IMG/VR virus record: IMGVR_UViG_3300028802_000048
Coordinates: 1 to 32,402 of that record
Direction: 5' to 3' (one strand)
Length of the DNA stretch: 32,402 nucleotides
Source: a virus
Part shown: positions 2,588-26,042 of the stretch, one piece after another
Numbering within the stretch: the first letter of the stretch is position 1
How the letters are laid out: each line of letters starts with the position of its first letter
Notes under the pieces: generated by a model
The model's database searches: none
What the model saw: the letters and a program-made list of their open reading frames with translations, nothing else
What the model was told of the DNA's origin: nothing
Translations under genes and position numbers: made by a program

Positions 2588-2609
2588 CACGTTCCGAATG
2601 CTCTTGCAC

Positions 2610-7833: not shown

Positions 7834-7836
7834 GAT

Positions 7837-8574
7837 TTACAGACTCCATCCTTTGCCAAACGTGGGACCACTACTGCCGGTAAACGTCACGCCCGAGACC
7901 CGTTTGCTGGACGGTTGCCCGCCGCCGCCGCCGCCGCCCGCGGCCGACTTGAAGGACGCAATCGCCGACGACCGGAAGTCGGGCGAGCCCGTGCCGCTCC
8001 AGGTCGGGTTCACGGCCCCGGCCGACGTTTGGATCACATAGGCAATCGCGATCCCGAAGCCTTGCCCGACGACGGCCGCCGCTGATCCGTTTGACGGGAC
8101 GGTGAATCCGCTACAGGCGATCCCGGCGTTATCATAGACCGTCTGTACCGCGGTCACGACGACACAGTTATTCTCCGATGGCGTGATCGATCCCGGCTGC
8201 CGCGTCGTCGCCGCGCTCGAGGTGGCCACCCCATTTTCGTTGTCGAATGGCGAGGCATGGACGCCGCTAAATAAGCAGAAGGCGACCCCGGGGAAATTAC
8301 CGGTGCCCGTCGCCGAGACGTTAAACCCGCTCCCCGCGAGATCGTGACCAATCGTGTAGTACAGATTGATCATCTCGTTGCCGGCACTAACGCTGTATTT
8401 CGTCAGCGGCGTAAACGTCGTTGATCCTTCCGCGATGACCAGCGTGGCGTTATCCAGGCCGACGCCCGCCACGACCAAGAGATCCGAGCCGAGTGATGAG
8501 ACATTCGGAGATGTCGTCGCGTCGTGCTGATTCGCCGACGCGCCAGACGCCGCCACGACAAAGGTAATCGCCAT
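7837..8574 (-). CDS. Beta-rich tail appendage protein with Gly linker
   Basis: A 245-residue protein, strand-rich through residue about 215, with LGSDLLVVAGVGLD and AIASFKSA ends that resemble a jelly-roll-like module common in phages. A run of seven Gly follows, then a short C-terminal tail (SSKRVSGVTFTGSS...GWSL). The ATG, with AGGAG six bases before it, overlaps the previous stop by one base. The Gly run probably links the beta domain to an attachment tail. It may bind carbohydrate, but no catalytic motif is seen. Confidence 0.65.
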   Translation of the reverse strand: MAITFVVAASGASANQHDATTSPNVSSLGSDLLVVAGVGLDNATLVIAEGSTTFTPLTKYSVSAGNEMINLYYTIGHDLAGSGFNVSATGTGNFPGVAFCLFSGVHASPFDNENGVATSSAATTRQPGSITPSENNCVVVTAVQTVYDNAGIACSGFTVPSNGSAAAVVGQGFGIAIAYVIQTSAGAVNPTWSGTGSPDFRSSAIASFKSAAGGGGGGGQPSSKRVSGVTFTGSSGPTFGKGWSL

Positions 8575-9647
8575 CAAATACTCCTATGGGACACGCTCGT
8601 CCGAAACGTATCCGCCGGGGTTTGGGAGCCGAGCGAGGCGATCCCGATCGCCCATTTCGCGTTCCGCTGATCTTGAATATTCGCCCCGCCAAAAATGTCA
8701 TACCACGTGCCGTTAATGAGGTGAAACGCCGCCGCGCCACTGTGAAACCGATCGAACGTGCCGACGACCCCCGACGGTTGCATGATCGAGGCGTCGAGCG
8801 GAGACTTGACCCATCCCGTATTCGGCGACAGGCTCCGCGCAATGTTCGCCCCGAATGGCCCCGTGAGCCCGAACCCATACGTGCCGCCCAGGCCGCTCGG
8901 GCCGGCGTAGCCGGTTTCCCATGTCACATAGTAGTAGTCGCCGAGCTTAAAAAAGTGCTTCCATTCCATAAACTGCGCTTCCCACACCTTCGGGCCTTGA
9001 CTGAGGACGTCGGTCGCGACCTTCGTCCAGGTGAGGCCGTCCGACGAGGACGCATACCGAATCCCCGGCAGCACATGATCCGTGCCCGCCGCCGGGTTGC
9101 GGTAGGAATAGAGCGCGTGCCAGTGTGTCGCGTCCGCTTGGATCACACTGAATTGACTGACGCCTTCCTCGTCGGCCGGACTGCCGAGCGTGTGCGTAAA
9201 AATCGGGTTGCCCGCGTATTTCGTCCAGCTCTGCCCGCTATTGCTCGACGTGGCGAGGCCGATCGCGGAGCCCGTATTGCCGTTGTCGGCGGTGTAGTAG
9301 AGCCAGAGGTCGGTCGTGCCGATCGGTTGCACGACGCTATCCGCTCGGACTCCATAGGTTTTATTGTCCCACGCGCCCCCGGTGCCGGCGACGAGGAGCG
9401 GGTTGCCCGCATCCTCGGTCCAGGTCGTCAGGCTTGATCCCGGTGTGCAGACCGCCCGGCCGATGGACTGAATCCCCGTGACGACTGGCGCGGCCATCCC
9501 GCAGAAGATCAGCAGCAGCTTGGACGAGTCGAACGGATCGACGATGACGTTGTTGTCGAACGTCTGCGAATCGTGCCAGCCGCCACCGCTCGCCGCGACA
9601 ATGGGAGCGCCAGAGTTCAGCCGTGTTGGCTCGACCCAGCTACTCAT
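8574..9647 (-). CDS. Beta-propeller tail protein, GH43/GH32-like
   Basis: A 357-residue protein with repeated propeller-blade motifs: W.D..TFDNNVIVDPFDSSKLLL, VRADSVVQP..TTDLWLYYTA, SNSGQSWTKYAGNPIF, SSSDGLTWTKV and DYYYVTWETG. The Asp-box-like S.SG.SWTK motifs and the D-W-Y pattern are typical of five-bladed propellers of GH43/GH32-related proteins. A tail-borne enzyme or lectin acting on host polysaccharide is likely. Catalytic Asp/Glu residues cannot be assigned safely. The ATG overlaps the previous stop as ATGA. Confidence 0.7.
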   Translation of the reverse strand: MSSWVEPTRLNSGAPIVAASGGGWHDSQTFDNNVIVDPFDSSKLLLIFCGMAAPVVTGIQSIGRAVCTPGSSLTTWTEDAGNPLLVAGTGGAWDNKTYGVRADSVVQPIGTTDLWLYYTADNGNTGSAIGLATSSNSGQSWTKYAGNPIFTHTLGSPADEEGVSQFSVIQADATHWHALYSYRNPAAGTDHVLPGIRYASSSDGLTWTKVATDVLSQGPKVWEAQFMEWKHFFKLGDYYYVTWETGYAGPSGLGGTYGFGLTGPFGANIARSLSPNTGWVKSPLDASIMQPSGVVGTFDRFHSGAAAFHLINGTWYDIFGGANIQDQRNAKWAIGIASLGSQTPADTFRTSVSHRSI

Positions 9648-10648
9648 CGCGGGAGCCCGTTCCCGTGGCCGACCGTCAGCCCGTACATCTCGGCGACGTC
9701 CTTGGCGATCGTGGCGACGTCTCGCGCCTGTTCCGGCCGCGCCTGCCCACGGATAAACTCATACGCGACGGATTCGAGCACGCAATACGCCATCGGACGC
9801 CAGCCATGATACCCGCCCGCAATGCGGATCAGGTATTCCCAATAGCGCGACACCCAGCACGTACATTGATAGTCCTCGAGCTCGTACCGGCTGTGCTTCC
9901 CGCACGACTGATAGAGCGCGGACCCGTGCGCCGTCTGATAGCACGCGAGATCGATGTACTGCCCGCCGTGCTCCCGGTAAAACTCCGCTTCGCCCCCTTG
10001 CCAGGGATCGTCGAGCTCGACGGGATTGGAGCTCCCCACGAGCCGCTCGGGGCTACCGTGATAGCCGATCGCCATGCCCGGCATCAGCCCGTGCAGGAGC
10101 CGGAGCGACTCGCTCACCTCGTAGCTTGACCAGTCACCAATGACCGGCTCGCACGCCGGTATCCCGATGAGGTAGGGAAACAGCGACCACATCTCGGCGG
10201 CGAACCTCGGCCATCGTTCGTGAATCCGTGGCAAGGGTGACGGCCCGCCCCAGTCGAGCCAGATCATCGGCGCGAGCCCCCGATCCAGGCACGCCTCGAG
10301 CACGCGCCGATACGTCGGCAGGTCGTGCCACAAATCCGGCTGATCCCAGACGCCGTTATACGACGGCCCGCCGTCCGGGACGTTGAGTAGGACATGGGTC
10401 GAGCCGTTCGCCCGAAGCACCTCGCACCAGAGATCGAACCGTCCAGGCTCACGGACATACACCGTCGGCATGACGGGCGTATAGATGATCGACGTGTCGC
10501 CGGAGCCCGTGCCGTCGTACAGGTTGCACATGTTGCCGCGCACCCGCAGGAGCGCCGCGCCCGTCAGCCGGCCCCCACCGCCGCCCCCACCGGACCCGCC
10601 GCCGGGTTGCCCCGCCAGCCAGTACACGAGATCGTCAGACGTCATCAC
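9644..10648 (-). CDS. Glycoside hydrolase-like tail protein
   Basis: A 334-residue protein. A short N-terminal attachment segment is followed by a Gly-rich linker of ten Gly and one Ser, then a TIM-barrel-like domain. It shows alternating strands such as STHVLLNVPDGG, LAPMIWLDWGG and YLIGIPACEPVIGDW, and near the end YCVLESVAYEF. ACEP resembles the NEP acid/base motif of clan GH-A enzymes with Cys for Asn, and the second Glu could be the nucleophile. A tail depolymerase is a good hypothesis. The start is GTG followed at once by ATG, so either is possible. The upstream 99-residue gene overlaps it. Confidence 0.65.
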   Translation of the reverse strand: MMTSDDLVYWLAGQPGGGSGGGGGGGRLTGAALLRVRGNMCNLYDGTGSGDTSIIYTPVMPTVYVREPGRFDLWCEVLRANGSTHVLLNVPDGGPSYNGVWDQPDLWHDLPTYRRVLEACLDRGLAPMIWLDWGGPSPLPRIHERWPRFAAEMWSLFPYLIGIPACEPVIGDWSSYEVSESLRLLHGLMPGMAIGYHGSPERLVGSSNPVELDDPWQGGEAEFYREHGGQYIDLACYQTAHGSALYQSCGKHSRYELEDYQCTCWVSRYWEYLIRIAGGYHGWRPMAYCVLESVAYEFIRGQARPEQARDVATIAKDVAEMYGLTVGHGNGLPR

Positions 10649-10944
10649 GCCCCGACGGCAAACGGGATCACGAAGGTACCTTCACTGAACGGGCTAAACA
10701 CGAGCAGCCCGTTGGACTTCGTGCAGGACTCCCACGATCCCGCCGTGCCCTTCGGCCGCGCCTCGATGCCGCCCGTCGTCGTCACGCACAAGACGACCTC
10801 GGAGCCTTGCGCTCCTGGAAGCACCGTGCCCGGAGCCGGGAGCCCGGCATATTGCACCGCGATCGGGTTGGCGATCGTGACCGTGAACTTGCCGCCGCCG
10901 ACGTCGTTGAGTTGCTTTGCGCTGATGACCTGAAGCATTTTCAC
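10645..10944 (-). CDS. Small tail appendage protein, 99 aa
   Basis: A 99-residue strand-rich protein (GGGKFTVTIANPIAVQYAG, SEVVLCVTTTGGIEARP) with no recognised family. The GTG start overlaps the previous stop as GTGA and has AAGGAG eight bases upstream. An ATG two codons later is the alternative. It sits between the propeller protein and the hydrolase-like protein, and both junctions overlap, so it is likely a connector or adaptor of the fibre complex. Confidence 0.6.
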   Translation of the reverse strand: MKMLQVISAKQLNDVGGGKFTVTIANPIAVQYAGLPAPGTVLPGAQGSEVVLCVTTTGGIEARPKGTAGSWESCTKSNGLLVFSPFSEGTFVIPFAVGA

Positions 10945-12383
10945 TGCCAGAACTCCTTGTAATACGGCCAGATCGAGCCAGACGACACCGGCTCCGGCGT
11001 CGGCGGAATTGGCGTCGGCGGCTCGGGCGGGATCGGCGTCGGCGAGCCCGACCGGACCGGGAACGTCTGCCACGCGCCGGATGCGGTTTTCATTCTCGCC
11101 CAGGACTCCGCTATCGCCGGCCAGTATTCGAGCCCGTCGACGACCGCGCCGTTATAGACGCGCCGCTTGGCGAATCCGATCTGTGCCGTCACGCCGAGCA
11201 CGACGCCGAGCGCCCAGACGTCATGGAGCCGATCGACAATGACCTGCTCCGGCCACGTGTACGAGCCGTCCGTATGCCACTGACAATAGACCGGCACGAC
11301 GAACGCGCAATGAATCCCTGCCGAGATCAGCCGCCGCGTTGCCGACTCGATCGTGGCCATGGACACGTGAGGGTATGTATACACGCCCGCCCAGGCGTCC
11401 GCGTCCCGGTAAGGCATCTCCGCGACGTCAATCGGCCGGCCGTCCCGGTAGTAGAGCTCGACGATCCCGTGCTCGGCGGCGAGCGCCCGCGTGCCGCTCG
11501 GGTTGTAGTCGGACCCGTTGACCGTCGAGAAGGCGAACGGCGTTCGCTCGTGCGAGACATACGGCGGCTTCGAGCCTTCGACGCTGCATACCGTCGGCCC
11601 GGCATCGTCCGCAAACAGCGCCAGCCCGACGGGAAACGGCGAGCGCCCGAACTCAGGTACCGTCGTCTGTGGCGGCTCGACCGCGGCCGGCCAGGGCGGG
11701 CAGGAGATGAACGCGGAGCCGGTCGACGTCCGCGCACAGATCCGATGCAGCCCGGCCGCATTGACGACGTGTTCAGACTCGTAGCACTGGCCCGGAATGA
11801 CCTCAGACGTCACGCCGTCGTGATACGCGCCGATGGTATCCGGCCCGGCGATCTGCCCGACCGTCACGCCGTCGGCCGTCTGGGGAAACCGTAACCCGTG
11901 CTCCTCCACGTAGCCGCCCGACGTCGACTCGCACCACAACGGCACGCCGTTCTCGAGCCCGCGCATGCCGGCGACCGTGCCATCAGGGAATGGGTTGTCA
12001 TACCGATCCCGCTGCCCGTTCTCCAAGTCGATCCGGAGCCAGGAGTACGGCGAGTCGCAGACATACGCCACGAACCGTTTCGAGACGACGGCGAGCCGGA
12101 CGCACCGTGTCCCATAGGACGGCACGCCGAGATTCGTCACGCCGGCCGACGTAATCAGGAAGGCCCGATCGATCCCGTCGACCTCGGCCGCGCCGAGCAC
12201 CCACACCGTCCCGTCGAGCTTCGCCGCCATAGCGAGCCAGCGCATCGGCCCGGCCGACTGACGCCACACCTCCGCGCCGTTGACCCGGACCACCACCGCG
12301 CCGTCGAGGACGCGAGCGTCCGCGTCACCGGCCGGATGCCAACAGCACGACGGAAACGATCCGGCGAGACGCTCGAGGCTCAT
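10941..12383 (-). CDS. Large tail appendage protein, propeller plus barrel-like domain
   Basis: A 480-residue protein. Residues 1-280 are strand-rich with blade-like motifs (DGAVVVRVNGAEVWRQSAG, DGTVWVLGAAEVDG, SWLRIDLENG), suggesting a beta-propeller. Residues about 300-420 look like part of an alpha/beta barrel (GIVELYYRDGRP, SAGIHCAFVVPVY). The C-terminus is a Pro-rich linker (TPIPPEPPTPIPPTPEP) ending in IWPYYKEFWQ. It could be a receptor-binding or polysaccharide-degrading tail spike. The start ATG overlaps the previous stop as ATGA. Domains are inferred from pattern only. Confidence 0.6.
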   Translation of the reverse strand: MSLERLAGSFPSCCWHPAGDADARVLDGAVVVRVNGAEVWRQSAGPMRWLAMAAKLDGTVWVLGAAEVDGIDRAFLITSAGVTNLGVPSYGTRCVRLAVVSKRFVAYVCDSPYSWLRIDLENGQRDRYDNPFPDGTVAGMRGLENGVPLWCESTSGGYVEEHGLRFPQTADGVTVGQIAGPDTIGAYHDGVTSEVIPGQCYESEHVVNAAGLHRICARTSTGSAFISCPPWPAAVEPPQTTVPEFGRSPFPVGLALFADDAGPTVCSVEGSKPPYVSHERTPFAFSTVNGSDYNPSGTRALAAEHGIVELYYRDGRPIDVAEMPYRDADAWAGVYTYPHVSMATIESATRRLISAGIHCAFVVPVYCQWHTDGSYTWPEQVIVDRLHDVWALGVVLGVTAQIGFAKRRVYNGAVVDGLEYWPAIAESWARMKTASGAWQTFPVRSGSPTPIPPEPPTPIPPTPEPVSSGSIWPYYKEFWQ

Positions 12384-12721
12384 ACGGTCAATGTCGGATA
12401 CGCCTGATCCAGCTTCGTGAGGAGCTCGATCAGACTTTGGACGACGGAGATCCCGGCCGGAGCTAGGGCGAGACTCGCCGACAACCCGACGAGATGCACA
12501 AAGTCGCCCGCCGGAAGGACGTTGGGTACCACCGTCCCGGCCGTCACCAGCCCGAGCAGCGTTTGGAGAAACACCCGAGTCGCTCGCACGAGCACAATCA
12601 TCATCGGCGTGACAATGTGAATAATCACCGGCCGGCCTTCCGGCACGACGAGCCCGCCGGCTCCCGTGCCCGACGACGACGGGATCGTCACAATCGTGGG
12701 CTTGAACTCGACATCATCCAT
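12380..12721 (-). CDS. Putative holin
   Basis: A 113-residue protein. The first 45 residues are polar to mixed, then two hydrophobic segments follow: TRVFLQTLLGLVTAGTVVPN and HLVGLSASLALAPAGISVV, separated by a short DF turn, with a C-terminal LLTKLDQ. The RvFlQTLlg..tag....d.....l.asl.la..s pattern resembles phage holins of two-helix type. GGAG lies seven bases before the ATG. It is the last of three small membrane-type genes between the hub gene and the tail appendages, the usual place for lysis genes. No endolysin is adjacent. Confidence 0.65.
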   Translation of the reverse strand: MDDVEFKPTIVTIPSSSGTGAGGLVVPEGRPVIIHIVTPMMIVLVRATRVFLQTLLGLVTAGTVVPNVLPAGDFVHLVGLSASLALAPAGISVVQSLIELLTKLDQAYPTLTV

Positions 12722-12737
12722 TGAGGTACTCCATTGG

Positions 12738-13178
12738 TTATCGTGGCGATCCCATCAGACCCGGCTCGAAGATCGGCGTCCGGGGCTCCGTCTTCCGACG
12801 CGGGAGCGGCCTCGTGCTCGTCGTCGTCGTCGTCGTGTTCTCCGTCGCCCGCGTCAGCTGATCCGCGAGCGCATCGATCCGATCTTCAATCCCCATATGC
12901 ACCCGACGGAGATCGTCGACGGACGATTGCAACAGATCAATATGCGCCTCGACGCTCGACCACCGGACGCCCGCGAAGAAGATGCCACTGATAATCACGC
13001 CCGTAAACCCGAGCACGGAGATCCACCGATCGATCGGCCAGTGCGGGAACTTCCCATTGGCGGCGACGTGCGCCACGCCGCCGGCCGCGATCCGCTCGAG
13101 CGCCTCGATCTCTCGCAGCAATCCCCGATCGCTGATCGTGTCACTGGCCCGATCACTGATGCTCCGCTCGATCCTCAT
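12738..13178 (-). CDS. Membrane protein with coiled coil, possible lysis gene
   Basis: A 146-residue protein starting MRIERSIS, chosen because its ATG overlaps the stop of the 43-residue membrane gene as ATGA. Residues about 52-72 (WISVLGFTGVIISGIFFAGV) form one membrane helix. After it comes a helical heptad-rich stretch (HIDLLQSSVDDLRRVHMGIE...LADQLTRATE) and a Thr-rich run with a basic tail. The topology resembles phage proteins that sit in the membrane with an extended coiled coil, such as spanin-like or holin-partner proteins. There is no lipobox. Lysis role inferred from position. Confidence 0.6.
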   Translation of the reverse strand: MRIERSISDRASDTISDRGLLREIEALERIAAGGVAHVAANGKFPHWPIDRWISVLGFTGVIISGIFFAGVRWSSVEAHIDLLQSSVDDLRRVHMGIEDRIDALADQLTRATENTTTTTTSTRPLPRRKTEPRTPIFEPGLMGSPR

Positions 13179-13306
13179 CGCCAGACTTGCAGGAGCACGA
13201 TGATGCAGAGCAGGAACACGGACACCCAGATCGGCACTTTGCCGACGGCCGCGCCGACGGCGAGCCCGAGCGCAATCACGGCGAGTAACGGGATCAAACT
13301 GATCAT
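13175..13306 (-). CDS. Tiny two-helix membrane protein, possible holin
   Basis: A 43-residue protein, mostly hydrophobic: MISLIPLLAVIALGLAVGAA, a short GKVP turn, and WVSVFLLCIIVLLQVW, ending WR. It has a strong ribosome-binding site (AAGGAG five bases before the ATG) and an ATGA overlap with the next gene. Two short membrane helices with a small turn are typical of small holins or pinholins, but tail-region membrane proteins of unknown role look similar. It is the most hydrophobic protein in the window. Confidence 0.6.
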   Translation of the reverse strand: MISLIPLLAVIALGLAVGAAVGKVPIWVSVFLLCIIVLLQVWR

Positions 13307-13315
13307 GTCGGCTCC

Positions 13316-15508
13316 TTATGAGATCTCGAAGACGAGCGTAGCCCCGATCGTCGTGAGCGCCGATGACGTCGCCCACGGATCACCGGACGTCCGGCCAAAG
13401 GCGATATTACTGCCGCTCACGTACGCGTAGCCGTGACGCTCGACGTTATTGTCGATCGCTAAGACCGGGATAACGCACTCACCCGGCACGGAATAGCCGC
13501 CGGGGATCACCCGATTTAACACGGTCGACGGCGCACTCGTGACCGATGTGGTCACGAGAAAGAGTTGCAGCGTCATGATGTTTCCGACAATGCTGTAACT
13601 GCACCGATGCACGTCGCCCGATGCGACCGTCCACGACCCGCCGCTATTCGCCGTATAGTCGCCGGCACTAAAGGTTGGCGTCGTCGGCGGCACGTAGGTC
13701 AGCCCGCCGCCCGTCGCGCTGATCCAGTGCCACTTGATCCCGAGTCCGCCGCTATTCGGCGACCAGTAGAACAGCACGCCTTGATACGGCCCGAGCACGG
13801 CATCGACGTCGCCAGGACAGACGATCTCCGACGTCGCGGAGATGGCGAGCCCCGACCGATTCAAGACGGGAATACTCACGGACGTCTTATTGAGCACCCA
13901 CAAGAAGACGCCTTGCGTATTCGAGAAGCTCGGGGCTTCAATGCTCGTCAGCACGGGCGTACTCGTCGCGCTCGTGATCTCGACGACTTGATACGGCTCC
14001 CAGTCCTGCCCGCCCGTGCCGATGACGTCGAGATCGGTATTCCCGCTGAGACTGACGGTCGTGATCACGTCCGGATGGATGTTGTAGCCGCCGCCCGTAT
14101 GGACGGACGGCACGCCGCCCGTGCCGAGCGTCGTCGTCGGCGGTTGTTGCGCCCCACCGCCCACCGCGCCCGGCGGCGTAATCCGGAGCGAGATCGTCGA
14201 CGGGCTCGCGCCGTAGTAGCCGGCCGCGATCCGCTGTTGCCAGGACGCCTGAATGGGTCCGTCCGTGGCGGTGATATCGCGGATCAACCCGTCGTTATTC
14301 GGCTCGTTGCGCGTCGTGACGTCGGTGATCAGGAAGTCGGCGTTAATGGCCCGCTTCGCCGACGTGATATGGACGATCTGGCCAGGGTGAAACCCTTCGA
14401 CGACCGTGGAGAACTTGGCGATATTCGGCCGCGCCACGCGAGCGGCGATCATCCCATCGAGCAAGGCTTGTGCGACCGTTCGGTCGAAAATATCGGTACG
14501 GTCAATCCGATCTTGAAAGTGCCGACCGCCGGCCGCGGCCACCGCCGCCGCGTCGACCGCCGACAGCTCGAATGGGTACTGCGCGGTATAGTAAATCTCG
14601 AAATAGTACGGCGAGGAGAGCGTCGTGCGGTAGTGCATGCGGACTTGATTGGTCGAGACGTCATACGCCCACGGCAGGTTCGTATCGACGCCATACACGC
14701 CGACGGGCGTCATCACCACATCGCTCGTGCTGTCGAACACGGTCAGAAACCCCATCGGGTTTCCCGTCGCCAAAGCCCGCTCCGTCAGCGTGAAATCTCG
14801 CGTTACGCCGTCGCCGTTATGCCGCTCGGTCAGATCTTTCGTGCCCTGCCCAAAAAACCCGTACAGGATATTCGCGTACTGCGTCCGCTGCGGCTCGATC
14901 GTGAGATCCCCAACTTCGATACTGTCGTCGGCCTCGATGAGATCCGATGGCGCGGACGAGGTGCCGGGGATATACATCTCGAGTTTTTTCGCGTAGCTGA
15001 TCGTGGCGAAGTACTGATCGCCGACCGCCGCCGTCGCCGCCGAGATGTCGGCGAGACACTCATCGAATCGCTTTTTATGAAAACTGAACGGCCCCACCGT
15101 CGGCCCGTCTACCTGCCCGGCCGCGAGCGAGATCCCGTGCGTCGTGATCGAGGTGTTCGCGATCAAATACGCGAGATGGCTTTTCACGGTATCCGCCGCC
15201 AGATCCAGCGTGGCAAAGATCACGGTTAAGACGTCTTTGTAATCACGCGCCGTGATGTGCGTGACGAGCGCGGTATTATTCGGCCCCTCGAAGCCGCGCC
15301 GCTCGGCCGTCGCAATGAGCCCGCCAAAGATCGTGACGCCGTCTTCCACGATCACAATATCGTCGTCGATGTCGGGGCTATACGTGCCAGCTTGTGAGAG
15401 CACGTCGCCGCTCAGGGTGTTGGTGCCCTGTAGGCTCTCGGTGATCTGAAATGAGTTGAGGAGTACCTCGCGGGGGAAGCCCGCGATATAGACCGAGTCG
15501 ATCGCCAC
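13316..15508 (-). CDS. Tail hub / tip protein
   Basis: A 730-residue protein starting at a GTG that overlaps the tape-measure stop (TAGTG). Residues 1-380 look like the hub fold of phage tail proteins: LNSFQITESLQGTNTLSGDV, FGGLIATAERRGFEG, ITARDYKDVL, DGPTVGPFSFHKKRFDECLADIS. A central segment covers G-Q-I-VHITSAKRAI. The last 250 residues are strand-rich and end with a domain like receptor-binding C-termini (SGDVHRCSYSIVGNIMTLQL...). It probably forms the tail tip ring and binds the host. Usual distal-tail and peptidase genes are absent here, so their functions may be merged. Confidence 0.8.
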   Translation of the reverse strand: MAIDSVYIAGFPREVLLNSFQITESLQGTNTLSGDVLSQAGTYSPDIDDDIVIVEDGVTIFGGLIATAERRGFEGPNNTALVTHITARDYKDVLTVIFATLDLAADTVKSHLAYLIANTSITTHGISLAAGQVDGPTVGPFSFHKKRFDECLADISAATAAVGDQYFATISYAKKLEMYIPGTSSAPSDLIEADDSIEVGDLTIEPQRTQYANILYGFFGQGTKDLTERHNGDGVTRDFTLTERALATGNPMGFLTVFDSTSDVVMTPVGVYGVDTNLPWAYDVSTNQVRMHYRTTLSSPYYFEIYYTAQYPFELSAVDAAAVAAAGGRHFQDRIDRTDIFDRTVAQALLDGMIAARVARPNIAKFSTVVEGFHPGQIVHITSAKRAINADFLITDVTTRNEPNNDGLIRDITATDGPIQASWQQRIAAGYYGASPSTISLRITPPGAVGGGAQQPPTTTLGTGGVPSVHTGGGYNIHPDVITTVSLSGNTDLDVIGTGGQDWEPYQVVEITSATSTPVLTSIEAPSFSNTQGVFLWVLNKTSVSIPVLNRSGLAISATSEIVCPGDVDAVLGPYQGVLFYWSPNSGGLGIKWHWISATGGGLTYVPPTTPTFSAGDYTANSGGSWTVASGDVHRCSYSIVGNIMTLQLFLVTTSVTSAPSTVLNRVIPGGYSVPGECVIPVLAIDNNVERHGYAYVSGSNIAFGRTSGDPWATSSALTTIGATLVFEIS

Positions 15509-17808
15509 TAGCGCCCGACCCCGTAGGACGCGACCGCATCCGGCCACACCGGCACGATCGCCTCGGCGACTTGCCGCGCCCCGATATAGATCTGGGCCTT
15601 GAGCATCTGCCCGCCGCTGCCAGGGACCACGGGCGTCACGATCTCCGGATAGCCGCCCTCGGCCAGTCGGACGATCGTGCCGCCGGGACTCGGGAGCACC
15701 ATCCCGCCGCCGGCCATGGCCGGGACATTCGGCATCGACACCGACGCATCGGTACTGCCGGAGTCGGAGCCCGAGCCGCCGCCAGCGTTCCGATTCTCGC
15801 CGGGATCGTAGCCCGTGCTCGCGCCCGGTGAGACGTGCTTATCTCCAGGCCCGTTGTTGAAGAAGGCTTTATAGATCCCGTAGGCGATTAGGACTTCAAT
15901 CGCCGCGACGGCGAAGTACTCGCCCCAGGCCGAGCCGGCGACTTTCCCGAGCGCGGCATAGTAGCTGCCGCTCCCCGCGGCCGACGCCGCCGTGCCGGCC
16001 GAGCTCGCGCCCATCAGGGACGCGCCGATCGTCTCGCCGAGCTTCGCGCCCACGATCGCCGTGATCATGCCTTGAATAAACTTGTGCTCGAACTCATAGA
16101 GCAAGTCGCCGAGGATACGCGAGAACGCCCCTTGCACTTGCCCCCAGATCTCGGCCGTTACATCTTTCCAGTGTGACCAGTGGCCGATCAGCTTGACCGT
16201 CGTCTGCGCGACGTCGAACTCGAGATTGTTGAGCGTTTGTACGGCGTCATCCTTAAACTGCCGCCACTTGTCGATCGGCGGAGCCGGCATCAGCTTGACT
16301 TCGGTGCCGAGATTCTTGATCGCGTCGATCGAATCCTTTCCGACGCCGACCTTGGCGAGCTCGACAAGATCGACCATCTTGTCGTTGAACGTGATCCACG
16401 CCGGCACGACGAGCGTATTGAGATCCGATGACTGGGCCTTGAGCTCCTTCGAGAGCAGTTGTGTCCCGACCTTGACGCCCGTCAGCGTGGGGATCGCGTT
16501 CTCTTGCAAGTGATAGAGCACGAACGCCTGTTGAGCCCCTTCCTTCAGGCGAGCCGTGAGCTCCTTCATCTCGGCGGCATGATCTTCCGTCGCCTTGATT
16601 GACTTCGCCGTCTGGGCGTCTCGCTCCTTCTGATCCTTTAATCCTTGCTCGAGCGCCTCCGCGTTGGCCTTGTGCGCCTTGGCGAGCGCCGTCGTATTCT
16701 CGGCCCATGCGCCCGTCTGCGGGATCGATGCCACGACCTCCGCGAGAAGCTCCCGAGACTTGTTGATCTCCTTCTCGACTTGATCGACGTATTCGTTACC
16801 GAGACCGATCCTCCCGGTGATTACTTGATCCCAGGCGAATCCCCAATCCGTCGCATATCCGATCAGTTCGCCGACCGACGCGCCTTGGCGTTTATAGAAT
16901 CCTTCCCACCAGTCACCAAGCCGATCGAGATTCTCGATCGACCGATCGGACATGCCGCTATAGCCGTCTTCGAGCTTCTTAATATCGCCGAGCACCAGCG
17001 GAGCTAGTTCCCCCCAGGACTTGCCGAAGAGTTGCAGCCCAACCGCCGACTTCTCGGCCGCAGTGGGGAGCTTGGCGAACGATGCCGCCATGGTCTCGAA
17101 CATGGCCCCCGGCGACATCTTGAGCAGGGCATCGACGTTCAGGCCGAGCTTCGCCATGGCATCGGCCGCGCCGCCTTTGTTCTCGACGAGCTCGCGTTGG
17201 AGCCGCTGGACGGCCGACGCCGTAGTCTCAATCGTCGTGCCGACTTGTGCCCCGGCAAAGTCGAGCCGTTGCAATTCGCCGAGCGTCAGCCCCGTCGCCG
17301 CGCTGAGGTTAGAAAACTTGTCGGCCGCCTCAAAGGCCGATTTACCGAGCGCGAGGACGAGGCCCGTTACCGACGCGAGCCCGAGCCCTGACAGACTTAG
17401 GCCGAACTTGCCGAGCGTTTCATTCGCCCGATCCCATGCCGACGTCACCTGATCGGTATCGGCTTTGAGTTTTTTGAGATGCTCGGGCGCATCTTCGCCC
17501 ATGCGCTGATAGACCGCGAGCCCGTCTGTAACGGCCTTGTTGACCTTCCGCTGATCGGCTTCGCTCAGCAGCGAGACGTCGCCGATCCGCTTGACCGCCG
17601 CCGCGTACTCCTCGGCCCGTCGGATCTCGTCCGTGCCGAGGAAATCCTTCACCGCCGCATTGACGGCCCGCTGCCGCGGCTCGAGATCCTTTTGGAGTTT
17701 TTCGGCAAGCTCCTTAACGTCCGCGCCGGCCGTGGCCATGGCCGCGCTGAATTGCGCGGTATCGGCCGACAGGATGGCGCGTAATGTTCCGACGACGGCA
17801 TCAGCCAC
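15508..17808 (-). CDS. Tape measure protein
   Basis: A 766-residue protein. The GTG start (VADAVVGTLRAILSADTAQF) was chosen over an earlier Met because it matches the usual tape-measure N-terminus and has AAGGAG seven bases upstream. Long helices follow, then hydrophobic segments around residues 120-150 and 560-640 (FAVAAIEVLIAYGIYKAFF), as expected for a protein that lines the tail and enters the host membrane. Length suggests a tail of roughly 115 nm, using 1.5 angstrom per residue (inference). A Gly/Ser-rich region precedes the C-terminus. It follows the tail assembly chaperone, the standard order. Confidence 0.9.
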   Translation of the reverse strand: MADAVVGTLRAILSADTAQFSAAMATAGADVKELAEKLQKDLEPRQRAVNAAVKDFLGTDEIRRAEEYAAAVKRIGDVSLLSEADQRKVNKAVTDGLAVYQRMGEDAPEHLKKLKADTDQVTSAWDRANETLGKFGLSLSGLGLASVTGLVLALGKSAFEAADKFSNLSAATGLTLGELQRLDFAGAQVGTTIETTASAVQRLQRELVENKGGAADAMAKLGLNVDALLKMSPGAMFETMAASFAKLPTAAEKSAVGLQLFGKSWGELAPLVLGDIKKLEDGYSGMSDRSIENLDRLGDWWEGFYKRQGASVGELIGYATDWGFAWDQVITGRIGLGNEYVDQVEKEINKSRELLAEVVASIPQTGAWAENTTALAKAHKANAEALEQGLKDQKERDAQTAKSIKATEDHAAEMKELTARLKEGAQQAFVLYHLQENAIPTLTGVKVGTQLLSKELKAQSSDLNTLVVPAWITFNDKMVDLVELAKVGVGKDSIDAIKNLGTEVKLMPAPPIDKWRQFKDDAVQTLNNLEFDVAQTTVKLIGHWSHWKDVTAEIWGQVQGAFSRILGDLLYEFEHKFIQGMITAIVGAKLGETIGASLMGASSAGTAASAAGSGSYYAALGKVAGSAWGEYFAVAAIEVLIAYGIYKAFFNNGPGDKHVSPGASTGYDPGENRNAGGGSGSDSGSTDASVSMPNVPAMAGGGMVLPSPGGTIVRLAEGGYPEIVTPVVPGSGGQMLKAQIYIGARQVAEAIVPVWPDAVASYGVGR

Positions 17809-19866: not shown

Positions 19867-20231
19867 CAGCCATGCCCCAAGGTGAGGAGCTCGACGCCTT
19901 CGCGCCGGCCGATCTGATTCGCCGCGACAATGTTCAGCACGCGCCCCTGATAGAGAATCCGCCGGAGCTTCGGCACGTCAATCAGCCACGGGTCCATGTC
20001 GAGCCGGTAGTTAATCTCCCACCGCGTATCGTAGGACGCCGACAGTTGCTCGGCGGCGAACCGCTCCCGCGCCGAGATGTCTTCCCGGCTCGCCGGCATG
20101 GCGGCGACCAGCGTCGTCCAGGGATCGTCCGTCGGAGCCCCGACGCTATCGACGGCATCGGACGCCGCCCGCTGTTGGATCAGGATCGTGTGATCCCGTT
20201 CGCCCGGTTCCATCGCGGATCGTCGCGTCAT
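19866..20231 (-). CDS. Head-tail adaptor (SPP1 gp16-like)
   Basis: A 121-residue protein. The pattern GERDHTILIQQR, DPWTTLVAAMPASREDISARER, then the C-terminal strands IDVPKLRRILYQGRVLNIV is that of the head-tail joining stopper family. The start overlaps the connector stop (ATGA). A Met at codon 7 is the alternative start. It forms a ring below the portal that closes the DNA-filled head and receives the tail. Confidence 0.85.
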   Translation of the reverse strand: MTRRSAMEPGERDHTILIQQRAASDAVDSVGAPTDDPWTTLVAAMPASREDISARERFAAEQLSASYDTRWEINYRLDMDPWLIDVPKLRRILYQGRVLNIVAANQIGRREGVELLTLGHG

Positions 20232-20845
20232 ATCACCCGCGTCCAGAACCGCTCCGGCTGAATCGTCGCCGGGATCGTCGACGTGCCCGAGACGGACATG
20301 GACCGCTGTTTATAGAGCTCGGCCACCATCAATTCGATCCCCGTCAGGAACCGCGGCGGGATCTCCGCGTTCGTCGCGTAGCCAGCCTGATAGGTAATCG
20401 TGACGGCGTTCTGCTGGTACCGCGTCGACGGCCAGGACGCATCCGGCAGGGGATATAGCCAGGACGGCGAGATCGGCCCGCCTTCGACCAGCGTATAGTC
20501 CGCCGGGCTCACGGCCAGCGATTGATCGGCCCCGTTCTCATCGACGTAATCAAACGAGACGATCGAGATCAACGGGCTCGACCGCGGCAAGCGAATCCCG
20601 CCATACGGAAACCGATCCATGACGAGCGCCAGCGTCGTCGGAGCGAGCGTCCGATCCATGAACTCCTCGGCCGCTTCCGTCGCCGCTCGAATATCGCCCA
20701 TGATCTTGTCGTCGTTGAGCCCGTCATCGACGACGCGCAACACGGCCCGTTTGACATACGCGAGCACGAGCACGAGCTCTGACGCCGCCGTGATGACCCG
20801 ACGATTCCAGGTCACGTCCTCATCCCACGGGGAGCAATACATCAT
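20228..20845 (-). CDS. Head-tail connector (phiE125 gp8 type)
   Basis: A 205-residue protein. The segments LAYVKRAVLRVVDDGLNDDK, TEAAEEFMDRTLAP, LPRSSPLISIVSFDYVDENG, ADYTLV, ITYQAGYATNAEIPPRF and the helical end are those of the phage connector family (phiE125 gp8/HK97 gp6). It binds the portal ring. The ATG is a MMY start overlapping the glycosyltransferase-like gene by ATGA, so the sugar cassette runs straight into the connector gene. Assigned with confidence from the motif set. Confidence 0.88.
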   Translation of the reverse strand: MMYCSPWDEDVTWNRRVITAASELVLVLAYVKRAVLRVVDDGLNDDKIMGDIRAATEAAEEFMDRTLAPTTLALVMDRFPYGGIRLPRSSPLISIVSFDYVDENGADQSLAVSPADYTLVEGGPISPSWLYPLPDASWPSTRYQQNAVTITYQAGYATNAEIPPRFLTGIELMVAELYKQRSMSVSGTSTIPATIQPERFWTRVI

Positions 20846-21654
20846 GCGACCGCCTCACGAGGTAAGAGAAACGCCTTGAGCGAGAGCACCACGCGATCGA
20901 CGGTGATCGCGTCCAGTGCCGCCGCACAATGTCGGCATGGGAGCCAGGAGCCACACGGTGAATCCGGCCCGTCGTCGACGATCCCGAGATGCTCGGGATA
21001 GCCGAGCACCTCCCAATTGATCGCCCCACCGACGACGACGACGGCGAGCTTGTGGAGCGCCCGTGCCGCATGATGAAATGCGCCTTCCGTGCCGACGTAG
21101 CCGATCGACGCCGCCAGTACGCCGCACGCTTCGCGGAACGTGGACGCCGTGACCGTCCGCACACCCGGTAACGGCTTGGAGTCTTTATGTAACGGCTGCA
21201 CGAATTGGATCTGGGGATACGCCTCGACCACCGCCGCGTAGCGATCCCAGGACCAGACTTTGTTCCGCGTCGTGTCGGATTTCGCGTTGGGCTCGATGAC
21301 CACAAACGGCGACGGCAGCGAGCGCCCTAATCGCATGTCGTGGTCCGTCAGATACAACCGCCCGACATGATCGCGGGCTCGCCATGCCGTGTGATACCGC
21401 CAGCCCGTCTGACGCGTAAACGGATAGACGATGTAGGGACGCGCCCCCGTGCCGTTCGTCACGTAGGTATGCGGGATCTTCTTGAGCTCCGACGGATGGG
21501 CAATCACGGGATTCCCTTCCCAGAGCACATGCCAGCGTGGAGCGCCGGAGCGCTCGCAAATCGCCACCTTCCGATGCTCTGGATCGGCGTCATAGGCCCG
21601 CTGAGCGTGACCGGCTGCCAACAATTCGTCACCTAATCCCAAGACTAGGCCCAT
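20842..21654 (-). CDS. GT9-like glycosyltransferase (heptosyltransferase-like)
   Basis: A 270-residue protein. The N-terminus has GLVLGLGDELLAAGHAQRAY, a nucleotide-sugar enzyme-like motif, then WEGNPVIAHP. The C-terminal half resembles GT-B donor-binding: PFVVIEPNAKSD, WSWDRYAAVVEAYPQIQFVQ, ASTFREACGVLAASIGYVGT, EGAFHHAARALHKLAVVV. This is the arrangement of ADP-heptose LPS heptosyltransferases, a GT9 family. It overlaps FkbM by ten bases and the connector by ATGA. It may transfer sugar to a virion protein or host glycan. Donor and acceptor cannot be read. Confidence 0.75.
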   Translation of the reverse strand: MGLVLGLGDELLAAGHAQRAYDADPEHRKVAICERSGAPRWHVLWEGNPVIAHPSELKKIPHTYVTNGTGARPYIVYPFTRQTGWRYHTAWRARDHVGRLYLTDHDMRLGRSLPSPFVVIEPNAKSDTTRNKVWSWDRYAAVVEAYPQIQFVQPLHKDSKPLPGVRTVTASTFREACGVLAASIGYVGTEGAFHHAARALHKLAVVVVGGAINWEVLGYPEHLGIVDDGPDSPCGSWLPCRHCAAALDAITVDRVVLSLKAFLLPREAVA

Positions 21655-22304
21655 CCCATAATGAAGTCACCGATCATCGGCTTGCACATGGGCGACATCC
21701 CAAGCGCCGTCAAGTACCCAAGCGCCTGTTGGGGGGGAGCCCCGTAGTACTTCGCCTCGTGGTTTTTCTGCTCGATGATCACGATCGGCTTGTTCGCCAG
21801 GAGCGTCTCGCGTGCCCCTTGGCAGACCGGATACTCGAAACCTTCGACGTCGATCTTGATGAAGTCCACACCGGAGAATCCGTAACTATCGAGCGTCCGG
21901 ATCTCGACCGGCCCGTCAGCCACGAGCACCGCGTGGGTATCGCCGGAGCTCGACGGCTCCGTCACGAGCCGTGCCCGGCCATCGGCCGCGCCGAGCCCGA
22001 CCGGATGCAGCGTGCTGTTCGTGTACTCGAGCATGTTGGCGATCCAGCACTCTTGATGCGACGGCTTCGGCTCGAACGCGTGCAGCGTCTCGAAGTGCCG
22101 CGCCATCCAATAGGACCAGAGCCCCGCATGCGCCCCGACGTCGACCGCCACGCGCCGCCGCTCAGCCGGCACGAACTCCATGGCCTTTTCGTACTTCGAG
22201 ATCTGATACGTCAACCGCCCCTTGAGCCGGCGATTGGTTTTGATCATCCAATCCTGAAGATGACGCTCGCCGTCGGGGAGTTTCCAGAGATCGAAGTTGA
22301 TCAC
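21645..22304 (-). CDS. FkbM-family methyltransferase
   Basis: A 219-residue protein. The motif AVDVGAHAGLWSYWMARHF is the SAM-binding Rossmann motif I, followed by LHAFEPKPSHQECW (acidic strand 2), IRTLDSYGFSGVDFIKIDVE and GFE, the FkbM signature. Such enzymes O-methylate sugars. The start is GTG, overlapping the previous stop as GTGA, because the longer Met start lies within the upstream gene. Its place in a cluster of glycosyltransferases suggests methylation of the same glycan. The C-terminus (MIGDFIMGWA) is short. Confidence 0.85.
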   Translation of the reverse strand: MINFDLWKLPDGERHLQDWMIKTNRRLKGRLTYQISKYEKAMEFVPAERRRVAVDVGAHAGLWSYWMARHFETLHAFEPKPSHQECWIANMLEYTNSTLHPVGLGAADGRARLVTEPSSSGDTHAVLVADGPVEIRTLDSYGFSGVDFIKIDVEGFEYPVCQGARETLLANKPIVIIEQKNHEAKYYGAPPQQALGYLTALGMSPMCKPMIGDFIMGWA

Positions 22305-23050
22305 GCGTCCACCGTCTGTCGCGCTTGATGGGCCGCACGGACGCCGCGCCACTCGTCGGCGAACTCGTCGCGCTCATGCCCCGGCACGTCTGGCGTGCCC
22401 AAGGTGAAATGGACGATCGAGATCTGTTCCGGCTTCGGCGACGTGACGCCGGACAAGTAATTCCACTGCGCCGGGAGCTCGCCGACCTGAAACTCCTTGA
22501 GCCACTTGAACGCGTGCAAGTCCCGGCCCGGCCAGGTATTCAACGGCCAGGACTGAGGATCGCCGGCCGTGAGCACCTTATGCGCCGGATGCCCGCAGTT
22601 GAACAGCATGACGCTTGACCAATTCTTTTTCGAGTACTGCGTCTGTGTCTGCCCGCGTTTCTTCTCGTCGGCTTCCGGCATCGGCGCATGCTTCACGACT
22701 TGCACGGCGTAGTCCGGATCGGCATAGAGCATGAGCGCGGCGACGTCCTCCCGAAACAACACATCCCCATCCGTGAACAGCGCCCATCCGGTATGGTTCG
22801 CCAGCCACGGCACGAAAAACCGCGCGATGGCGTGCCCCGTCGTCATCGGGGCTTCGGAGATCTCGTCCCAGTACCGGCCGTCGGCGTGCTTCGTCGGCCG
22901 GAGATAGAGCCCGAGTCTTTCGAGTGGCCGCAGATCCACCCGAGCCACGTCCACCGGCAGACTCGATGTCGCCCGGAGCGAAGCCGCGGCGACGTCGTTG
23001 GCCACCGTCTCATGAGGGTCCCATCCGATATACACGCGCCATCGTCTCAT
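22301..23050 (-). CDS. GT-A glycosyltransferase (GT8-like)
   Basis: A 249-residue protein. The N-terminus (RVYIGWDPHETVANDVAAAS) and the central ARFFVPWLANHTGWALFTDG.DVLF segment match GT-A enzymes, with DGD as the DxD metal- and nucleotide-sugar-binding motif at about residues 106-108. The later segment (NWSSVMLFNCGHPAH) and a Trp-rich C-terminal region probably form the acceptor site. The ATG overlaps the previous stop as ATGA, and a more upstream Met was rejected. Substrates cannot be read. Confidence 0.82.
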   Translation of the reverse strand: MRRWRVYIGWDPHETVANDVAAASLRATSSLPVDVARVDLRPLERLGLYLRPTKHADGRYWDEISEAPMTTGHAIARFFVPWLANHTGWALFTDGDVLFREDVAALMLYADPDYAVQVVKHAPMPEADEKKRGQTQTQYSKKNWSSVMLFNCGHPAHKVLTAGDPQSWPLNTWPGRDLHAFKWLKEFQVGELPAQWNYLSGVTSPKPEQISIVHFTLGTPDVPGHERDEFADEWRGVRAAHQARQTVDA

Positions 23051-23856
23051 GCCGCCATCCTTGCTCGCGTCGCCTCGGCTTCGTCTCTCAGTACGCGCCA
23101 CGCCTTGCCGGCGGCGATCTCATCCATGGTCCACTGGTGAGACGCGAGCGCATGACAGAACTCCGGACGGTTGTCTGGATAGTACGGCCGCTCGATCTCG
23201 GCGAGATCGGCGAGCGCCATCCGGCGAGTCGCCGCCCACGGACACAACACGAACACCGGCACGCCGTAGATCAAGGCGTCGATCGCCACGTTGGAATGAT
23301 AGGTGACGACGGCCCAGGCGTCAGCGAGCGCGGACGCGATCGGCGTCGTCGCCGTCGCCTTGTAGCGCACCACGACCGGCCGATCGGTTGCGTCTTTCAC
23401 GGCGGCGACCATGGCCTTCTCGGCCTCATGCCCGTCAAACCCCATGAGCGCGGCATGGACGGCCGGAGCCGGACAGACGAGCACGTCACGGCCGGCCTTG
23501 CGCCACGGACGGATCGGCTTCTCGAGGAGCATGAACCGCCGCGCCCCGTCGCGCTCCTCCGTGCCCCGGTATTGGAACTCGTTATGGCTGATGCGATAGA
23601 ACGTGCTCCGCGCCCCCAGGAACGCATGATCGCCGTAGTACCAATCGCGGCCGGACTCCCGCGCCGCCGTGATCTGATTCCAGCCGACCGACGAGCCGAA
23701 GAGCGCGATCGGCCGGTGCAACGGCTCAGCGATCGGCAGATTCTTCATCACGCCCCCGCACCCCGTCGAGAAGGCCCGGGCGAACTTCGGCGACGTCGAC
23801 TCCCGCGGCGAACAGAGCGTGATCGGTGTGAACTCCCCAGGCCCCATGGAGATCAT
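23047..23856 (-). CDS. Capsule-type (KpsC-like) glycosyltransferase-like protein
   Basis: A 269-residue protein. The C-terminal half has VVRYKATATTP, then AWAVVTYHSNVAIDALIYGVPVFVL, resembling the donor-site motif of GT-B capsule and Kdo transferases (vtynS..a.dAL..G.PVf). The N-terminal half (KNLPIAEPLHRPIALFGSS, KPIRPWRKAGRDVLVCPAP) is less conserved. The gene sits within the same ATGA-linked run. Assignment to a precise family is not possible by eye. Confidence 0.65.
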   Translation of the reverse strand: MISMGPGEFTPITLCSPRESTSPKFARAFSTGCGGVMKNLPIAEPLHRPIALFGSSVGWNQITAARESGRDWYYGDHAFLGARSTFYRISHNEFQYRGTEERDGARRFMLLEKPIRPWRKAGRDVLVCPAPAVHAALMGFDGHEAEKAMVAAVKDATDRPVVVRYKATATTPIASALADAWAVVTYHSNVAIDALIYGVPVFVLCPWAATRRMALADLAEIERPYYPDNRPEFCHALASHQWTMDEIAAGKAWRVLRDEAEATRARMAA

Positions 23857-24509
23857 GGGAGCGCCTCGGCGAGCGGTTGCCGGCGAAAGACGCCGAGCGC
23901 CGTCTTGCGGCTCGCGTTGATCACGTCGACGCCGCGCTTTTTGAGCTCGGCGGCGAGATTGGGATAGTTCCGCATGAACAGATGGTACGGCGGCACGACA
24001 CCGCCCGGATGCGAACCGAAGTAGTGATCGCGCCCTTCCTTCGACGGCCCCATGTCATAGCCGAGCAGGATGATCCGCCGCGCCCCGAAATGGACGGCCA
24101 GATTGATCGCTTGATACCCGGAGTTTTTGCCCGTTCGAAGCCCAGACGGATCGGCTTCGAAGCCGTCGTCGCCCGTGTTTCGAAGTACGGTGATGTCGGC
24201 ATACGGGCCATGTTCCCGCCGGCCGGCCTTGGCCTTGGGCTCGACGGAGAACTTGAGCCCCGCGAATCCCGGCACGCCTTTATGCCAGCCCCACCACCGC
24301 GCATCGCACGCGTAGAGCACCTCGGCCCATGGCGCGAGTTGATACGTGTTGTTGATGGCAATGACGGACGCCCGGCCGCGGCAGTACTCGACGTCTTCGA
24401 CCGTCAGCGACGGCCCGCAGCCGAGACAGACCCAGACCTGGTTAGACGCCGGCCACGCGCCCACGCCGACGTCGGCCGCGGGTTGGGCGTTCTGGTACGT
24501 CTGGAGCAT
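23853..24509 (-). CDS. Sialyltransferase/DUF115-like protein (GxGPSL)
   Basis: A 218-residue protein. Near residues 29-35 it has GCGPSLT, then VIAINNTYQLAPWAEVLYAC and D..WW, the pattern of GT42/DUF115-type nucleotide-sugar proteins. The centre has LRTGKNSGYQAINLAVHFGA, RIILLGYDMG and HYFGSHPGG. It probably transfers or activates a sugar. The start ATG overlaps the upstream 74-residue gene by 68 bases. A GTG about 40 bases downstream is an alternative. It is first of the sugar cassette after the capsid genes. Confidence 0.7.
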   Translation of the reverse strand: MLQTYQNAQPAADVGVGAWPASNQVWVCLGCGPSLTVEDVEYCRGRASVIAINNTYQLAPWAEVLYACDARWWGWHKGVPGFAGLKFSVEPKAKAGRREHGPYADITVLRNTGDDGFEADPSGLRTGKNSGYQAINLAVHFGARRIILLGYDMGPSKEGRDHYFGSHPGGVVPPYHLFMRNYPNLAAELKKRGVDVINASRKTALGVFRRQPLAEALP

Positions 24510-24666
24510 CGGCGACCTGTTCCTGCTCGTCGAAGGTCACGATCTCAATGACGCCGGCTTTGAGGAAGTCGGCGAATTGAGGGTTGAGCCGCTCGACCTC
24601 GATCGTCTGCCCGTTCCGGTACGCCCAGTCACGGGCAGCGATCGAGGTCAAGAAGCGTATGGTCAT
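24442..24666 (-). CDS. Small head-region protein, 74 aa
   Basis: A 74-residue protein whose ATG overlaps the capsid stop (TAATG), so it is translationally coupled to the capsid gene. The N-terminal half is mixed (RDWAYRNGQTIEVERLNPQF...LKAGVIEIVTFDEQE). The C-terminus is strongly basic (RPTRGRRRRGRVAG). It may be a minor head or DNA-contact protein. No family recognised, and its 3' end overlaps the next gene by 68 bases. Confidence 0.7.
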   Translation of the reverse strand: MTIRFLTSIAARDWAYRNGQTIEVERLNPQFADFLKAGVIEIVTFDEQEQVADAPDVPERPTRGRRRRGRVAGV

Positions 24667-26042
24667 TACGCGTTGATGAAGTACTTCACCGGATGCGTCC
24701 CGGCGTCGAGCAAGTCGCCGTCGTGACGCGAGAAGGCCAGGAAGCCGACTTGGCCGTAATCCGCGTACCGCTCATCGAGCCGAACCAGCGTGATGTCGCG
24801 CACGTCACGGATGATGTACTTCGACAGTTGCCCGAAGATGACCGACTTGTCACCGCCGCTCGGCGAGCCCGGCCCCATCTGCGCCATGTCCTGATTGATC
24901 GTGTAGCCGTAGCCCAGGATCGTATCGGGAGCGCCGACGGCGAGCCCGGACTGCCACAACGGCATGCCCGTCGTGTCGCCGGAGTATTGCGGGACGCGGA
25001 CCTTCTTGAGCACCTTGAGCGTGTCATCGTGGAACATGAACCGAGCCCCTTGCCGGTACGCCGGGTCCACGGAGTGTTCCAGATCGACGAGCTCGTTGTA
25101 CGTGATCGACGCGCCGAGCGATCCCGTGACGCCGAGTGTTGCCGCCGTGACGATGCCGTTGGGCTTGTCTGAGCCGTCGCCCGTCGTGAAGTGCGTGTTG
25201 GTGATCCGGCCGATGCGCTCGCCGAGGAGCCGTCCGACCATCGACGCAAAGTCGATGCTTGAATCCTGCATGAGCTCGACGCTCACGAGGATCAGGCGTG
25301 ACGAGTACTTGTACGCCTTGAGCGTCATCGTCGTGAAGTGAATCGGGAGCTCGGTATACTGCCCGTTCTCGGCCAGGATCGCGCCCGTGTTCGACGTGTC
25401 ATTGGTCGACGGAAACGGCATGTCGCCGCCCTTCGCCGTCCGGATGACGTTGGCGACTTTCCGCATGCCGCCGAACTCGAGCAAGGCGATCTCAAGTTCT
25501 CGAATGGCTTCGTGGGCGACGGTGTAGCCGCCCTCTTCGCCGGAGCCGCCCGGTGAGCCGTCCGCGTAGACGCTCTGCGCCCGCTCGGCCCATGTCCGCA
25601 TGTCGTCGTCACGGAGCGACTTCGGAGCCCGTGACGGCAGTTGGAAGCTCAGCGTCTTCGCGTCCAGGTTGACGCCGGCCCGCTGTGCCGCGGCCCGCTG
25701 TTCCGGCTTGAGCTTCAGATCCGTCCCGGCCTGAAACCACGAGCGGAGCCCCTCGTACCCGTCGGCGATCCGCTGTTGTTCGCCGGACGCTCGGTTCGTG
25801 TCGATCGGCTGCTTGATCGGTGACGTCGGCTCGGAGCGCCGGCCCGTCGTCTCGGCGATCTCGGCGACCTTGAGGAGCCGACGCTCCGTCGCCATGAGTT
25901 TGTCGCGCTCGGCGTCGATCGCGTCGAACCGCGTCGACTCTTCCGGCTTGAGCTCGCGCTTTTCCGTCTTCGCCACTTCCAAGATCTCTTGGAGTGTCGC
26001 CGCGTGTTTGTTGATCTGTTCTCGAAGTTCCTTGACGTCCAT
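24666..26042 (-). CDS. Major capsid protein, HK97 fold
   Basis: A 458-residue protein. Residues 1-70 are a charged coiled coil (delta domain/scaffold), residues about 90-180 form a linker and N-arm, and the rest carries HK97-capsid motifs: AIRELEIALLEFGGMRKVAN, a short TMTLKAYKYSSRLILVS strand, GRLLGERIGRITNTHFTTGD, LGVTGSLGASITYNELVDLE, FMFHDDTLKVLKKV and the C-terminal FLAFSRHDGDLLDAGTHPVK. It is preceded by AAGGAG and follows a region with a terminator that isolates it from the upstream unit. The protease encoded upstream should remove the delta domain. Confidence 0.95.
   Translation of the reverse strand: MDVKELREQINKHAATLQEILEVAKTEKRELKPEESTRFDAIDAERDKLMATERRLLKVAEIAETTGRRSEPTSPIKQPIDTNRASGEQQRIADGYEGLRSWFQAGTDLKLKPEQRAAAQRAGVNLDAKTLSFQLPSRAPKSLRDDDMRTWAERAQSVYADGSPGGSGEEGGYTVAHEAIRELEIALLEFGGMRKVANVIRTAKGGDMPFPSTNDTSNTGAILAENGQYTELPIHFTTMTLKAYKYSSRLILVSVELMQDSSIDFASMVGRLLGERIGRITNTHFTTGDGSDKPNGIVTAATLGVTGSLGASITYNELVDLEHSVDPAYRQGARFMFHDDTLKVLKKVRVPQYSGDTTGMPLWQSGLAVGAPDTILGYGYTINQDMAQMGPGSPSGGDKSVIFGQLSKYIIRDVRDITLVRLDERYADYGQVGFLAFSRHDGDLLDAGTHPVKYFINA

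Follow-up and report, generated by a model that had tools for sequence, protein, structure and literature searches.

The serotype-converting gtr cassettes of temperate phages combine a membrane flippase with a membrane glucosyltransferase and lie by the integration genes. Firm support for glycosylation of the virion itself is known, in the literature that we searched, from few systems, mainly mycobacteriophages. In Che8 and others, capsid and tail tube carry glycans (Freeman 2023, as cited in PMC12619734 and PMC11256854), which these papers tie to phage-encoded glycosyltransferases; in Maravista, a close mycobacteriophage relative, they place the transferase genes near the 3' end of the genome. 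Here, we describe a five-gene cassette (genes A to E; positions 20842–24509, minus strand) in the siphovirus record IMGVR_UViG_3300028802_000048 of IMG/VR, analysed over its whole length of 32,402 bases (the window). Like the mycobacteriophages, this virus encodes its own glycosyltransferases; unlike Maravista, it holds them in the head block, between the genes for the major capsid protein (MCP) and the head-tail adaptor, and unlike the gtr cassettes it has no membrane-type protein among the five products, which are predicted to be soluble. Virion glycosylation and phage glycosyltransferase genes as such were already known; what appears new is the multi-enzyme cassette in the head-connector block, and no report of a conserved set of several genes in this slot of siphoviruses came to light, most subscription journals lying outside the literature searched. 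The enzyme families, the position in the operon, the recurrence in other viruses and the exchange as a unit are established by computation. As to function, we consider it somewhat probable that A–E are soluble enzymes, expressed late, which draw on the nucleotide sugars of the host to glycosylate a virion protein.

A preliminary description of this stretch had read its genes as a GxGPSL-type transferase-like gene, a KpsC-like gene, a GT-A transferase with a DGD motif, an FkbM methyltransferase and a GT9-like gene, expressed with the head genes and joined to each other and to the connector by 4- to 10-base overlaps, and had called for profile searches and structure prediction. Both parts of this account stand. 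The two kinds of analysis place all five products in sugar-linked families, and the sequence confirms the layout: after correction of the starts, the overlaps amount to 4 bases for A/B, B/C and C/D, 10 for D/E and 4 between E and the adaptor gene Ad1. Upstream lies an HK97-type MCP gene (24666–26042, minus strand; PF05065, E=1.2e-54; phrog_10, 4.8e-57) and downstream Ad1 (20228–20845, minus strand; phrog_442, E=2.5e-19).

A (23853–24509, minus strand; 218 residues, GxGPSL motif) matches phrog_4603, 'alpha-2,3-sialyltransferase', at E=4.9e-44. With Pfam PF01973 it reaches 1.5e-4 and 22 bits, under the curated cut-off of 34.6, and is thus filed as a distant relative and not as a Maf. Its AlphaFold2 model (predicted local distance difference test score, pLDDT, 82.5) compares best, by VIA, with Maf (5mu5; Z 14.9, root-mean-square deviation, rmsd, 4.0, 183 residues aligned), followed by Cst-I (2p2v; Z 13.2) and Cst-II (1ro7; Z 11.9), unrelated folds scoring around 4; Foldseek alone gave a weak result (best E 3.7e-3). 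As modelled, A is of the Maf/GT42 (sialyltransferase-like) fold shared with Maf and Cst-I/II, and across 52 sequences its residues G32, S34, D69, S130, G131, G150 and D152 reach a conservation of at least 90%.

B (23047–23856, minus strand; 269 residues) has no strong sequence match, and its profile search against the PDB gave chance matches only, so that structure comparison was needed. For its structural model (pLDDT 82.1), the top 24 Foldseek matches are the 3-deoxy-D-manno-octulosonic acid (Kdo) transferases KpsC, WbbB and KrkA (E 1.3e-7 to 9.8e-4), and VIA aligns 223 residues with KpsC (Z 10.5, rmsd 4.7), generic GT-B folds scoring about 8.6. Judged by this model, B is a KpsC-like GT-B enzyme with a fold closest to the Kdo transferases. 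DUF6716 is found in 24 of 52 relatives of B; D76 is at least 90% conserved in these 52 and is a candidate counterpart of the catalytic aspartate D160 of KpsC. Ferritin and T-cell-receptor matches in the profile searches of A and B were dismissed as chance.

C (22301–23050, minus strand, ATG at 23050; 249 residues, GT-A fold with D94-G-D96) matches phrog_28018 at E=1.5e-44 and is, through its relatives, predicted to be GT8-like: PF01501 is detected in 21 of the 47 (best 4.1e-9), the window's own C remaining under the Pfam cut-off, and D94, D96 and H214, and with them the DxD motif, are invariant in the 47 sequences. D (21645–22304, minus strand, GTG at 22304; 219 residues) passes the cut-off of PF05050, the FkbM family, with 57.1 against 22.7 bits (E=3.3e-15). 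E (20842–21654, minus strand; 270 residues) is weak when searched alone (0.21), and it is by its relatives and profile a GT9 (heptosyltransferase-family) enzyme, with PF01075 present in nine of ten relatives (best 2.4e-11) and the heptosyltransferase WaaC matched in the PDB at 9e-7. The maximal 19-residue hydropathy stays below 1.5 in A, C, D and E; the peak of 1.83 in B resembles a fold core. Membership in these families leaves the donors and acceptors of the enzymes unfixed.

A survey of relatives for the cassette near the capsid gene, which had also been proposed, finds homologues recurring in the head-connector slot on many contigs. The E profile gave 207 relatives in IMG/VR, and the best 80 loci were kept; in genome contigs, where the B profile found no relatives, the E profile was used in its place. 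Loci were hence picked by similarity to E and not by position, and the survey covers E-bearing cassettes, with profiles iterated from the window proteins and redundancy removed at 90% identity of E. Genes were called by same-strand scheduling, naive calling of the longest open reading frame (ORF) having given antisense artefacts in GC-rich loci. Among the resulting 64 non-redundant cassettes, 25, the window included, are flanked by head genes upstream and by connector genes downstream; 14 show the connector side alone, and one the head side alone. The first downstream structural gene is Ad1 in 28 of 45 cases and the head closure gene Hc1 in 11 of 45, while the first upstream one (n=28) is MCP or a small ORF after it (16), portal (6), Ad1 (5) or neck (1). 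In phages with the order MCP-portal, the cassette follows portal rather than adjoining MCP. In two isolates, Mesorhizobium sp. CA8 (L115) and M. jarvisii LMG 28313 (L123), a prophage has A, C, E and B in the stretch from MCP to portal. A search of 29 whole records with phrog_10 added four positions, which were kept out of the counts, and with MCP as seed IMG/VR yielded a single relative (L008), which has no cassette match between MCP and adaptor.

Members of the cassette are optional among relatives. Compositions are ABCDE in 20, ABCE in 12 and ABDE in 11 of the 64, the remainder being partial, and the gene orders include ABCE (11), ABDE (8), ABBEDC (8), ABCDE (6), ACBDE and others. This variation rules out gene order as a guide to reaction order, and the preliminary claim of a defined chain length, which was based on the order, falls with it. 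The same slot also holds methyltransferases, a hexapeptide transferase, an APS kinase and a GT2; genes of this kind recur there. The remark in the preliminary description that most siphoviruses lack genes at this place is plausible. The row of glycan genes at L020:836-8802 comprises five KpsC-like genes besides A, C and two D-type genes, which suggests expansion by duplication.

Furthermore, the cassette behaves as a unit that is partly independent of its neighbours. Pairwise identities among A, B and E correlate at 0.34–0.45 (Spearman, over the 26 loci that have MCP as well as A, B and E). Across the 30 loci available for Ad1 and Hc1, these two genes correlate with each other at 0.39, and A, B and E with either of them at -0.17 to 0.15. 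Because A, B and E co-vary more among themselves than with the capsid gene (see below) or the connector genes, the genes of the module are exchanged together.

Related sets in characterized phages differ in content and place. Caulobacter phage CcrColossus (gp126–gp131) and its CcrPW homologues resemble the window in an A-B-B-C-methyltransferase-E set (the methyltransferase by annotation, E as a GT9-type gene) within the late structural region, yet there, in a jumbo phage, it has tail genes on one side and lysis genes on the other and is not placed between capsid and connector; the main text of the Colossus paper does not mention glycosyl genes (PMC3556154). In D3, an A homologue (orf7-type, phrog_4603) stands exactly between the major head protein and the adaptor, as in the window, and in PAJU2 it sits between Hc1 and neck; the label 'structural protein' on this PAJU2 homologue (ORF010) was not used as proof, its basis being uncheckable. 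D3, PAJU2 and Klebsiella phage Eowyn (L002:7442-8837, L022:5516-6908 and L023:6589-8083) combine A with a different conserved gene of ~275–297 residues and a methyltransferase, which makes up a second kind of set. Tandem A-type pairs are found in P1 (pmgO/pmgP, L024:5956-7142, 3' of an annotated late promoter) and in Xanthomonas phage XacN1 (ORF375/ORF374, L128:8944-10253). Unlike the window, the D3/PAJU2 and P1 sets are without B, C and E. In Tetraselmis viridis virus S20, the block from capsid to head closure comprises two A-type genes, a D-type gene, a methyltransferase and transferases, but no clear B, C or E by the survey profiles. No mycobacteriophage was among the tblastn matches of B, C or E.

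With this in mind, we propose that A–E, expressed with the head genes, would make a short O-methylated glycan on a structural protein during virion assembly, using nucleotide sugars supplied by the pools of a Gram-negative host. A may form the first protein-sugar bond, as its Maf/GT42 fold suggests, Maf acting on flagellin; further sugars may come from B (Kdo-type), E (heptose-type) and C (a hexose), and D, as an FkbM-type enzyme, may cap the chain by O-methylation. The likely benefit would be a shielded or altered particle surface, be it for stability, for protection or to reduce adhesion to debris. Virion glycosylation is favoured by the presence of five sugar-linked families in a single operon of overlapping genes between capsid and adaptor, and the late placement of the related genes in Colossus, PW and P1 points the same way. 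A protein-directed start is suggested by the best fold match of A to flagellin-acting Maf; indeed, loss of Maf1 in Aeromonas affects glycosylation of flagellin and not lipopolysaccharide (LPS) (PMC3426422). Indirect support comes from XacN1, which has the A-type pair and for which proteomic analysis reported at least two glycoproteins (PMC5852040), and from the capsid and tail-tube glycans of mycobacteriophages. Dozens of other viruses have related sets in the same slot, so the particle itself is the most likely bearer of the chain. A methylated sugar chain on the virion, as first put forward, is therefore the best single reading, whereas the capsid as its acceptor is not supported, since relatives carry the cassette after portal or behind tail genes; capsid, decoration protein, tail tube and fibre may each be considered candidates.

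Several observations weigh against this proposal. No virion with the full cassette is known to bear a glycan, and four of the five families (GT42, KpsC, GT8 and GT9) also build LPS, lipooligosaccharide (LOS) or capsule. MCP correlates with A, B or E at just 0.13–0.14 in the 26 loci (Spearman), which counts against a tight match of enzymes and capsid. In 24 of the 64 cassettes the survey profiles detected neither a head nor a connector neighbour, these being short contigs, other phage types or cases of missed genes. P1 pmgO and pmgP are recorded as non-essential, so that any role would be accessory, and the XacN1 authors credited ORF328 and ORF334 and not the A-type genes (PMC5852040).

A more specific version of virion glycosylation, which we hold only tentatively, is a protein-linked mimic of the LPS inner core, assembled from the host's CMP-Kdo and ADP-heptose, with a hexose and an O-methyl group. 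The cassette would then be an exchangeable coat-glycosylation module that dresses a Gram-negative phage in host-like sugars, a notion to which we give the same small weight.

The four families shared with LPS, LOS or capsule synthesis nourish the strongest competing explanation, which we regard as possible though rather improbable: the cassette could remodel the LPS or LOS core of the host late in infection, lipid A-core being changed in the cytoplasm before export, so that progeny avoid envelope debris or infected cells resist superinfection. GT42 (Cst-I, Cst-II), GT8, GT9 (WaaC) and KpsC-type enzymes are by family enzymes of LPS, LOS and capsule, and the preliminary description, which listed alteration of the host surface as the alternative, underrated it in this respect. 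The absence of membrane proteins does not exclude such remodelling, as core LPS is made in the cytoplasm, and the Caulobacter sets between tail and lysis genes fit a late action. Against it stands the placement in the head-connector block, common across diverse contigs; the glycosylation cassettes with which temperate phages modify their hosts are, to our knowledge, found outside the structural operon. The best structural match of A is, moreover, flagellin-directed Maf, though just 1.7 Z above Cst-I.

It appears improbable that the cassette is a moron, a passenger at a permissive head-connector boundary that serves the lysogen and not the virion. The exchange of the module as a whole and its loose ties to MCP and the connector genes would agree with this, as would the related sets in prophages and the unrelated accessory genes in the same slot. 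However, the Caulobacter jumbo phages Colossus and PW, which also carry the genes, are lytic, catalytic-type residues are conserved across ~25–60% identity, and the tight overlap with the adaptor gene implies late rather than lysogenic expression; a neutral passenger role leaves this coupling to the late operon unexplained. Least likely is attachment of glycans to hypermodified phage DNA bases, e.g. hydroxymethyl-pyrimidines: DNA-decorating glycosyltransferases of phages have been described (Pyle 2024, as cited in PMC12619734), but no thymidylate-synthase/hydroxymethylase (PF00303) was found in the window and seven related records, possibly fragments, by a search whose control responded, and a Tet/JBP search of the same eight records, which had no responding control, gave no match.

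If virion glycosylation is confirmed, it bears on virion stability, on host recognition, on the immune recognition of phages and on glycoprotein engineering. The head-connector cassette of many siphoviruses, the related sets in phages of Gram-negative bacteria and the A homologues in P1 and D3 suggest that phage coats may often be glycosylated, a trait that would then have been overlooked, and they offer testable roles for the long-unassigned genes P1 pmgO/pmgP and D3 orf7.

Between capsid and A, the window encodes a 74-residue ORF with a basic C-terminus (24442–24666, minus strand), which overlaps A by 68 bases. It has no family match in Pfam or PHROG searches, and homologues occupy the matching position in L029 and L030. 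The start of A is taken as the ATG at 24509, a downstream GTG being a candidate alternative. A shared protein of ~135 residues lies between capsid and A in L012:1848-2252, L016:855-1259, L048:6126-6524, L054:476-880 and L112:3973-4368; in L012 it belongs to phrog_5707, and it is a candidate for a decoration protein of the head that could accept the glycan.

By family searches, the structural genes of the window lie on the minus strand in the series TerS, TerL, portal, MCP, A–E, Ad1 and Hc1, followed by neck, tail terminator, major tail protein, tail chaperone and tape measure. Large ORFs without PHROG matches follow the tape measure gene (7111–15547, minus strand), those scanned having no confident Pfam match; this may be an undescribed tail-tip region. 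The product of a further gene (1847–2590, minus strand) contains an Ig-like domain of the ASH/HYDIN type (PF22544, 9.3e-7, above the cut-off).

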